DNA from: Bacteroidia bacterium | GTDB taxonomy: Bacteria; Bacteroidota; Bacteroidia; Bacteroidales; Prolixibacteraceae | Length of the DNA: 64,000 nucleotides | Assembly (NCBI GenBank): GCA_025358025.1 | Contig: JANYKW010000194.1 | Span: 1-64,000, forward strand | Reading direction: 5' to 3' | Shown here: piece after piece, positions 6,915 through 9,087 of the stretch | How positions within the stretch are numbered: the stretch's first letter is position 1 | Layout: every line of letters begins with the position of its first letter | The notes under the pieces: model-generated | The model's database searches: none | The model's input: only the letters and a program-made list of their open reading frames with translations | Told to the model about the DNA's origin: nothing | Translations under genes and position numbers: made by a program

Positions 6915-8276
6915 CTAAGGTTTCGGATACCCGTCCATCTGGTGAAGATTGTCGCCGATTTCCTTGTCCGACATTTCGTAGTCTGAAAGTTGTCCCCGCA
7001 TATATTTGTCATAACCTACGAGGTCCATCAACCCATGACCGGAGAGGTTAAAGATGATGATTTTTTCCTTGCCCTCCTCTTTTGCTTTTTTTGCTTCGCG
7101 GATGGTAGCGGCAATGGCATGGGTTGTTTCCGGTGCCGGAACGATACCTTCCGTTTTAGCGAAAAGCATACCTGCCTCGAAACATTCAGACTGGTTGATA
7201 GCGATTGGAGTAACATAACCTGCTCTCACTGCAGCACTTACCAATGGTGACATGCCATGATAGCGCAAACCGCCAGCATGGATGGGTGCAGGTATAAAGT
7301 TGTGTCCAAGACTATACATCGGTAACAACGGGGTCATTTTGGCGATATCCCCATGATCATACATAAATGTCCCTTTCGTCAGGGTAGGGCAGGAGGCTGG
7401 CTCCGCACCAATAATTTCAATATCGTCACCATTGATTTTATCCTGAATGAACGGGAAAGCGAGTCCGGCAAAATTGCTTCCTCCCCCGCAACAGCCAATT
7501 ACGATATCAGGCTTTTTGATGCCGACTTTTGCCAACTGCTTTTTGGCTTCCAGTCCAATAACTGTCTGATGCAACATGACGTGGTTGAGAACGGAACCCA
7601 GTCCGTAACGGGTTTTCCCGGTAGGGTCTGTTACGGCTGCTTCAATCGCTTCGGAAATGGCAATACCCAAACTTCCCGGAGTATCCGGAAACTCGGCCAA
7701 TACGGCACGACCCGCAGCGGTTTCCATACTTGGACTTGCCACACAAGTTCCACCCCATGTGTTCATCAGGATTTGGCGAAATGGTTTTTGTTCATAGCTG
7801 ACCCTGACCATGAAGACTTTGCACTCAATGCCGCCAATCAGAGCGCAGGCAAAGGAGAGGGCACTGCCCCACTGACCTGCCCCGGTCTCCGTGGTAATTC
7901 TTTTGATTCCGAATTGTTTGTTGTACCAGGCTTGGGGAATGGCGGTGTTGGGTTTATGACTTCCGGCAGGGGATACACTTTCGTTTTTGTAAAAAATTTT
8001 AGCAGGAGTTCCCAATGCTTTTTCCAGTTCAAAGGCGCGAATCAAAGGACTGGGTCTCCAAATCTTTAACATCCCCTGAACTTCTTCCGGAATACTGATC
8101 CAACGCTCGGTACTTACTTCCTGTTCGATCAGGTTCATAGGGAAAACGGGTGCAAGCATTTCAGGTGAGATGGGCTTTCCGTCCGGACCAAGAGGAGGAA
8201 GCATCGGAAGATCAGCTGCGAGGTTATACCATTTTTTTGGCATTTCCGATTCATCGAGATAAATTTTCTTTTCCAT
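6915..8276 (-). CDS. trpB: TrpB-like PLP-dependent enzyme (tryptophan synthase beta, TrpB2 type)
   Basis: [63 protein letters not shown]. Confidence 0.93.
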
Positions 8277-8304
8277 TTTTTCTGGGTTTATTATTTCGAA
8301 ATCA

Positions 8305-8352
8305 ATTAAAAAAGGAAAGGGGAGATGCTGCGTAAACAGACATATCCCCTTT
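8305..8352 (-). terminator. Intrinsic terminator in the trpB leader (candidate attenuator)
   Basis: Minus-strand RNA AAAGGGGATATGTCTG-TTTACG-CAGCATCTCCCCTTT followed by CCTTTTTTAATT; 12-bp stem with one mismatch, plus CTG/CAG. Confidence 0.75.
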
Positions 8353-8376
8353 ATGGTTTAATTACAGGTATACCGC

Positions 8377-8442
8377 CTACGCTTCTTGTATCAAGTCGCG
8401 CCAAAGCCAGTTCGAGCCCCTGTAATTTGTAAGTGTAATCAT
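8377..8442 (-). CDS. Candidate trp leader peptide MITLTNYRGSNWLWRDLIQEA
   Basis: 21-codon ORF with two Trp codons (TGG CTT TGG) upstream of a terminator hairpin and trpB; not in the supplied ORF track because of its size. Confidence 0.7.
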   Translation of the reverse strand: MITLTNYRGSNWLWRDLIQEA

Positions 8443-8464
8443 ATTTTTTATCCTAAACTGTGAG

Positions 8465-8494
8465 CGAAAGTAAGAATTATTTTAAATTTCACAA
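8465..8494 (-). promoter_or_regulatory. Candidate promoter of trp leader/trpB
   Basis: Minus strand TTG-N19-TACTTTCG (consensus TAnnTTTG, one mismatch). Confidence 0.5.
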
Positions 8495-8594
8495 TGGTTC
8501 TGTAAAAATAATTTCAAATAGAAGAACTTTGAAAGTTTAGATCTGGGAGTTGAGAGAAGAAAAATGAGGGATAATCAAAATATTTTTATTTTCA

Positions 8595-8632
8595 TAAAAA
8601 AAGGCCGCTGGTTTTTCAACCAGGACCTTTTT
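8595..8632. terminator. Bidirectional intrinsic terminator
   Basis: AAAAAAAGGccgCTGGTTtttcAACCAGgaCCTTTTT between the trpB promoter region and osmC 3' end. Confidence 0.75.
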
Positions 8633-8667
8633 GACGTTACAAGCTTTAAAAATTGATAAATAGAGAT

Positions 8668-9087
8668 TTATGCTTTGTGCAACACAATCTCGTGTGTGAC
8701 CGGAATTCCTTTTTTAAGTGTGGCTGCGACCCCGCAATAGCGCTCATCCGACAAGTTAACCGCCTTTTCGAGCTTTTCCATTGGAAGGTCCTTCCCCCAG
8801 AACTCGTAGATAATATGGAGTGAAGTGAAATGTTTTGGGTGTTCTTCTGTCATTTCCCCTTCTACTTTCACATTCAAGTCGACAAGTTCTACCCTCATCT
8901 TTTCAAGAATAGAGACAATATCCATCCCCGTGCACCCAGCTAGTGCTACCAGCATCAAAGCTTTTGGTCTCGGGCCCAGATCGCTTCCTCCATTGGACTG
9001 ATCTGCATCAATGGTTAATTTGTGGCCGTAAAGTTCGGTCTCGAATGTCATTCCTTTCTTCCAGGTGAGATTAATTTCTTGCTTCAT
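8668..9087 (-). CDS. OsmC family protein
   Basis: 139 aa; ALAGCTGMDIVSILEKMR and RYCGVAATLKKG typical of OsmC/YhfA. Confidence 0.9.
   Translation of the reverse strand: MKQEINLTWKKGMTFETELYGHKLTIDADQSNGGSDLGPRPKALMLVALAGCTGMDIVSILEKMRVELVDLNVKVEGEMTEEHPKHFTSLHIIYEFWGKDLPMEKLEKAVNLSDERYCGVAATLKKGIPVTHEIVLHKA

Follow-up and report, generated by a model that had tools for sequence, protein, structure and literature searches.

A Trp attenuator has been described in Bacteroidetes, the Bacteroid-trp RNA (RF01692), in which a leader with Trp codons lies 5' of tryptophan genes (Weinberg et al. 2010, PMC2864571). In the trpL leader of E. coli (RF00513, Trp_leader), a short ORF with Trp codons is combined with strands 1-4, which form the pairings 1:2, 2:3 and 3:4, and the terminator lies about 50 nt past the last TGG. 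In Corynebacterium diphtheriae, attenuators were reported on trpB1EDGC and on trpB2A (Seliverstov et al. 2005, PMC1262725), a genome in which both of the trpB-containing units thus have a Trp attenuator. The roles considered for stand-alone TrpB2 enzymes include serine deaminase, indole rescue and phosphoserine-dependent Trp synthesis (PMC1854888, PMC11917138), and an evolutionary study described the other selective function of TrpB2 (trpB2_o genes) as unidentified (PMC1854888). Our literature search, which covered few subscription journals, turned up no attenuator described for a stand-alone trpB2 gene in Bacteroidetes. The preliminary description of the DNA analyzed here named Trp leader-peptide attenuation as classical in Proteobacteria; in Bacteroidetes it is not new either, since RF01692 is already in Rfam and in this very genome. 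What is new is the leader itself, its spread, an 18-nt ruler that is independent of the stop codon and, as we infer, the regulation of TrpB2 together with Trp supply.

The region upstream of trpB2 in the window (the whole 64-kb stretch of DNA that was analyzed) is very probably a ribosome-mediated (leader-peptide) transcription attenuator that ties trpB2 expression to charged tRNA-Trp. Its parts are present and conserved, its ORF is under selection, and its mutually exclusive pairings are species-matched and keep a constant spacing to the Trp codons; what we infer is that the promoter is used, that ribosomes stall and that readthrough depends on Trp. The features are as follows:

8668-9087, minus strand: OsmC-family gene, the upstream neighbour, in the same direction as trpB2
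8494-8465, minus strand: predicted Bacteroidetes-type promoter, with TTG (-33, 8494-8492), N19 and TACTTTCG (-7, 8472-8465)
8442-8377, minus strand: leader ORF of 21 codons, MITLTNYRGSNWLWRDLIQEA followed by the stop, with TGG at 8409-8407 and 8403-8401
8427-8419, minus strand: strand 1, leader codons 6-8, AATTACAGG, complementary to the distal part of strand 2
8382-8360, minus strand: strand 2, with the antiterminator 5' strand GCGTAGGCGGTATACC (8382-8367) running into CCTGTAATT (8368-8360), the partner of strand 1
8348-8330, minus strand: strand 3, GGGATATGTCTGTTTACGC, which comprises the 5' arm and the loop of the terminator and is the alternative partner of strand 2
8352-8316, minus strand: predicted intrinsic terminator hairpin (strands 3:4)
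8315-8308, minus strand: terminator tail CC-T6 (CCTTTT or longer in other members of the genus)
8276-6915, minus strand: trpB2, a TrpB-like PLP enzyme of 453 aa, ATG at 8276

Most of these parts had been noticed in the preliminary description, and the TTG-N19-TACTTTCG element, the 21-codon ORF with TGG CTT TGG at codons 12-14, the hairpin with its T6 tail, the trpB start and the pairing of AATTACAGG with CCTGTAATT were all recovered at the positions listed. The T-run is set off from the stem by CC, and the trpB2 start lies 39 nt beyond the terminator stem. The 10-bp pairing of GCGTAGGCGG with CTGTTTACGC proposed in the same description is real, and its length was understated: the antiterminator of the window extends to about 17 bp (duplex -20.0 kcal/mol).

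The controlled gene is of the TrpB2 type by the NCBIfam HMMs, its product scoring 703 bits against NF009057 (cut-off 366) and 621 bits against TIGR01415 (cut-off 519); the trpB1 model TIGR00263 gave 157 bits, below its cut-off of 392. The closest solved structures are 6hul, 4qys and 6hte. The gene 3' of trpB2 is convergent, and trpB2 is therefore probably monocistronic. The promoter pattern TTG-N19-TACTTTCG occurs 5 times in the window against 1.8 expected, and it is therefore weak when taken alone; in relatives, a TAnTTTTG-like box was seen by eye at a similar distance 5' of the leader ORF. The 161-nt leader folds with -43.3 kcal/mol (z = -2.9 against chance).

The locus resembles Bacteroid-trp in its Trp-codon leader, in its phylum and in its place 5' of a tryptophan gene; however, the leader peptide and the stem sequences differ, and the controlled gene is a stand-alone trpB2. 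The short Trp-codon ORF, the four strands and their three pairings are shared with E. coli trpL, as is the position of the terminator (onset 48 nt after the last TGG in the window and 54 nt in trpL), whereas the phylum, the promoter type and the target gene are different, the Trp codons are arranged as WxW rather than WW, and the stop codon lies at +21 rather than +9. In C. diphtheriae, an actinobacterium, the second trpB shares its operon with trpA, in contrast to the stand-alone TIGR01415-type gene found here.

The orthologs of trpB2 were drawn from relatives and from GTDB contigs, and the 300 nt upstream of each were examined for a leader, defined as an ORF of 8-60 codons with an ATG start and either WW or WxW; the expectation was obtained from dinucleotide shuffles. 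The conserved short Trp-codon ORF for which the preliminary description had proposed to look was found in 70 of 99 distinct Bacteroidota regions against 1.4 expected, and in 0 of 21 regions upstream of orthologs outside Bacteroidota. Additional trpB2 leaders have GTG or TTG starts or a single Trp codon. Of the 44 ORFs in the window with 150 aa or more, just one other has such a short ORF upstream of its start (24469+), and it looks coding-internal. The leaders are spread over several families of the order Bacteroidales, with a small number elsewhere in the phylum; Sunxiuqinia, Mangrovibacterium and Mariniphaga are among the relatives that have one. They fall into the type of the window genus (RGSNWLWRDF), a large MYK-type group (YGKEWxWRN(V/I)KME) and a third, varied set (NGNWWWW, NWWWR, YWRWR, KWCWR and others). 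Some close relatives with 81-88% TrpB2 identity (L010-L014) have no Trp leader upstream of trpB2, and certain lineages have therefore either lost the attenuator or replaced it.

Codon substitutions in the window genus indicate that the leader ORF is under purifying selection in its own frame only: pN/pS among 7 members of the genus is 0.28 in the leader frame, the two alternative frames give 3.2 and 0.97, and a Ser codon was exchanged between AGC and TCG with Ser kept. The corresponding values for the MYK type are 0.36 vs 0.78 and 1.16. This class, MYKSPLYGKEWNWRN(V/I)KMETRE..., comprises L015, L046, L049 and about 37 other loci; its stop codon lies 42-57 nt beyond the Trp codons in most cases, and the residues R14, N15, K17 and E19, which follow W13, are the same in all of 40 leaders, although synonymous changes have occurred. 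Three members of the class (L022, L047 and L062) read EQAWRN, EHAWRN and EWHQRN and have one Trp codon left, with the remainder of the leader and the terminator intact.

In the 74 cases retained for analysis, a hairpin with a T-rich tail lies 3' of the leader, and the pairing statistics exclude L074, L097 and L126, which were discarded automatic leader or hairpin calls. The covarying stems that the preliminary description expected are borne out by an alignment of 23 leaders, in which 10 of 10 terminator pairs have changed on both sides; the antiterminator is conserved and species-matched, being 92.9% paired vs 25-60% when slid, and 3 of its 11 pairs have changed on both sides. Exchanging terminators between leaders of the varied set weakened the 2:3 pairing from -14.6 kcal/mol with the own terminator to -10.9 with a swapped one (0 of 5000 permutations as good), and strand 1 likewise fitted the distal part of its own strand 2 better than a swapped one (own -13.1 vs swapped -8.8 kcal/mol; 0 of 5000). 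Swaps cost little in the MYK-type group (own -9.8 vs -9.1; 36 of 5000), perhaps because its terminators are much alike, and strand 1:2 swaps within the window genus alone gave 528 of 5000, from 7 sequences that are too similar to one another to be informative.

When a 12-nt segment was moved along the RNA starting at the last TGG, and the energy of its duplex with the 5' arm and loop of the terminator was computed, the antiterminator peak fell at +17 to +20 nt past the last Trp codon in all three leader types; in the window, strand 2 starts exactly 18 nt past the last TGG. The stop codon, by comparison, stands at +21 or +48 across the leader types, and in one case at +6. The conserved ruler is the 18-nt spacing between the last Trp codon and the antiterminator strand, independent of the stop codon. 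The preliminary model had the region of the stop codon as the switch; its antiterminator is supported, whereas the fixed element is the spacing and the position of the stop varies.

According to the proposed mechanism, transcription would start just past 8465, and a ribosome would trail RNA polymerase through the 21-codon leader. When charged tRNA-Trp is scarce, the ribosome would stall at codon 12 or 14, and with the usual footprint its leading edge would end short of strand 2, 18 nt past the last TGG, so that strand 2 would be free. Because strand 1 would lie under the stalled ribosome, strand 2 would pair with strand 3 once the latter is made, the terminator would be blocked and trpB2 would be transcribed. 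When Trp is plentiful, the ribosome would reach the stop inside strand 2 and cover it, strand 3 would pair with strand 4, and transcription would end at 8308-8315. Without translation, strands 1 and 2 would pair, and the terminator would form as well.

Folding of the window leader agrees with this order of events as long as the terminator is incomplete: with its 3' arm omitted, strand 2 folds as the antiterminator with strand 3, and in the folding model with the 3' arm unmade the antiterminator reaches 0.71 when a ribosome occupies the last Trp codon but 0.00 when it occupies the stop. With the complete terminator, the terminator is favoured at equilibrium in every ribosome state, and the switch must therefore be kinetic. 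The same masked-ribosome calculation for E. coli trpL, a proven attenuator, favours the terminator in all states as well; equilibrium folding therefore does not discriminate, and it was dropped as a test of switching.

Three further explanations of the leader, as well as an extension of the attenuator reading, have to be weighed. The conservation of the MYK-type peptide is more than a pure tRNA-charging sensor needs. In the extended reading, TrpB2 of Bacteroidota would belong to a Trp regulon of diverse attenuators with the 18-nt ruler, and the nascent MYK-type peptide would help to hold the ribosome; peptide sequence and tRNA charging would then both be read. We consider this combination unlikely. 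Still less probable is that the leader peptide senses free Trp or acts as a TnaC-like arrest peptide, with stalling dependent on the peptide chain. The invariance of R14, N15, K17 and E19 in the 40 MYK-type leaders and the three leaders that keep a single Trp codon would suit such a peptide; however, the residues past the Trp codons vary in the window type and in other leaders, what stays constant is the RNA pairing together with the spacing of 18 nt, and a charging sensor requires Trp codons in direct or alternating succession (WW, WWW, WWWW). Moreover, TnaC induces a catabolic gene at high Trp, which is the opposite of a biosynthetic role.

Control of trpB2 translation initiation, or Rho-dependent rather than intrinsic termination, is highly improbable. 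In its favour, the T-tract is two C away from the stem, but a U-tailed, terminator-like hairpin has been retained while all of the pairs tested changed on both sides. The distance between the hairpin and the trpB2 start varies among relatives between a few nt and more than 150 nt, and direct masking of the start site therefore fits badly. That the hairpin merely terminates the OsmC-family gene, with the short ORF arising by chance, has almost nothing to recommend it beyond the co-directional position of that gene, which has its own terminator-like hairpin at 8623-8608 and is separated from the leader hairpin by the promoter pattern and the selected ORF; the arrangement is also repeated upstream of trpB2 in many Bacteroidales genomes.

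The design is common to relatives across Bacteroidota, and a shortage of Trp in the cell therefore appears to switch trpB2 on. An attenuator designed like that of the trp operon in front of trpB2 would mean that TrpB2 counts as part of tryptophan supply in these bacteria, which adds evidence for its regulation as a tryptophan-supply enzyme.

The relation of the trpB2 leader to known RNA families was examined with covariance models. RF01692, RF00513 and the T-box (RF00230) have no match to the window leader (8000-8800) at the cut-off or at E <=10, and no family of Rfam 15 matches the trpB2 leader; assignment of the leader to any of these three families was thus ruled out. One other trpB2 leader (L117) scores 40.8 bits against RF01692, under the curated cut-off of 49 bits. 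The same genome has one copy of RF01692 (56.8 bits) directly 5' of its trp operon, and the trpB2 leader is therefore a second, unlisted Trp attenuator. The trp-operon leader is at L151:14094-14255 (minus strand) and is of the Bacteroid-trp type with WWW. The operon has the order trpB-E-G-D-C-F-A, with trpB first, ahead of trpE (trpB and trpE were named by NCBIfam, and the order G-D-C-F-A was read from the sequences).

A covariance model trained on trpB2 leaders only (R1; 23 sequences, including the window leader, L002) has the window leader as its single match in the window; as this leader is in the training set, the match speaks for uniqueness and is not an independent detection. R1 also matches the trp-operon leader of this genome, which is outside the training set, with 30.6 bits. 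Of the secondary matches in relatives, 19 of 20 inspected lie directly 5' of trpE, and one is false; 18 of the 19 have a Trp-rich leader ORF in the stretch examined, and TrpE was the best assignment for the 8 downstream proteins checked, with scores below the curated cut-off of the model. By this cross-detection, which extends to the RF01692 leader, the trpB2 and trp-operon leaders share one architecture, whether through common origin or through shared constraint. Among 119 relatives, RF01692 exceeds its cut-off in 16, and R1 has matches at E <=0.01 in 74, comprising trpB2 and trpE leaders (the E-values are rough, and some matches will be due to chance). This suggests that the existing RNA-family models miss many Trp leaders of Bacteroidota.

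In other classes of the phylum, short ORFs of the WWW type followed by hairpins with T-runs were seen upstream of trpB2 (L189, L190, L195 and L200); of these, only L189 and L200 are weakly detected by R1, in the sense direction. Trp-rich leaders were also observed 5' of trpE in relatives (L235-L244 and L247-L254), mostly with a similar terminator, GGCTCATCG...CGGTGAGCC or AGCGGCTTATCG...CGGTAAGCCGCT. RF01692 at E <=0.001 misses them in the genomes searched with it, and by their sequences these trpE leaders look like a further undescribed leader type.
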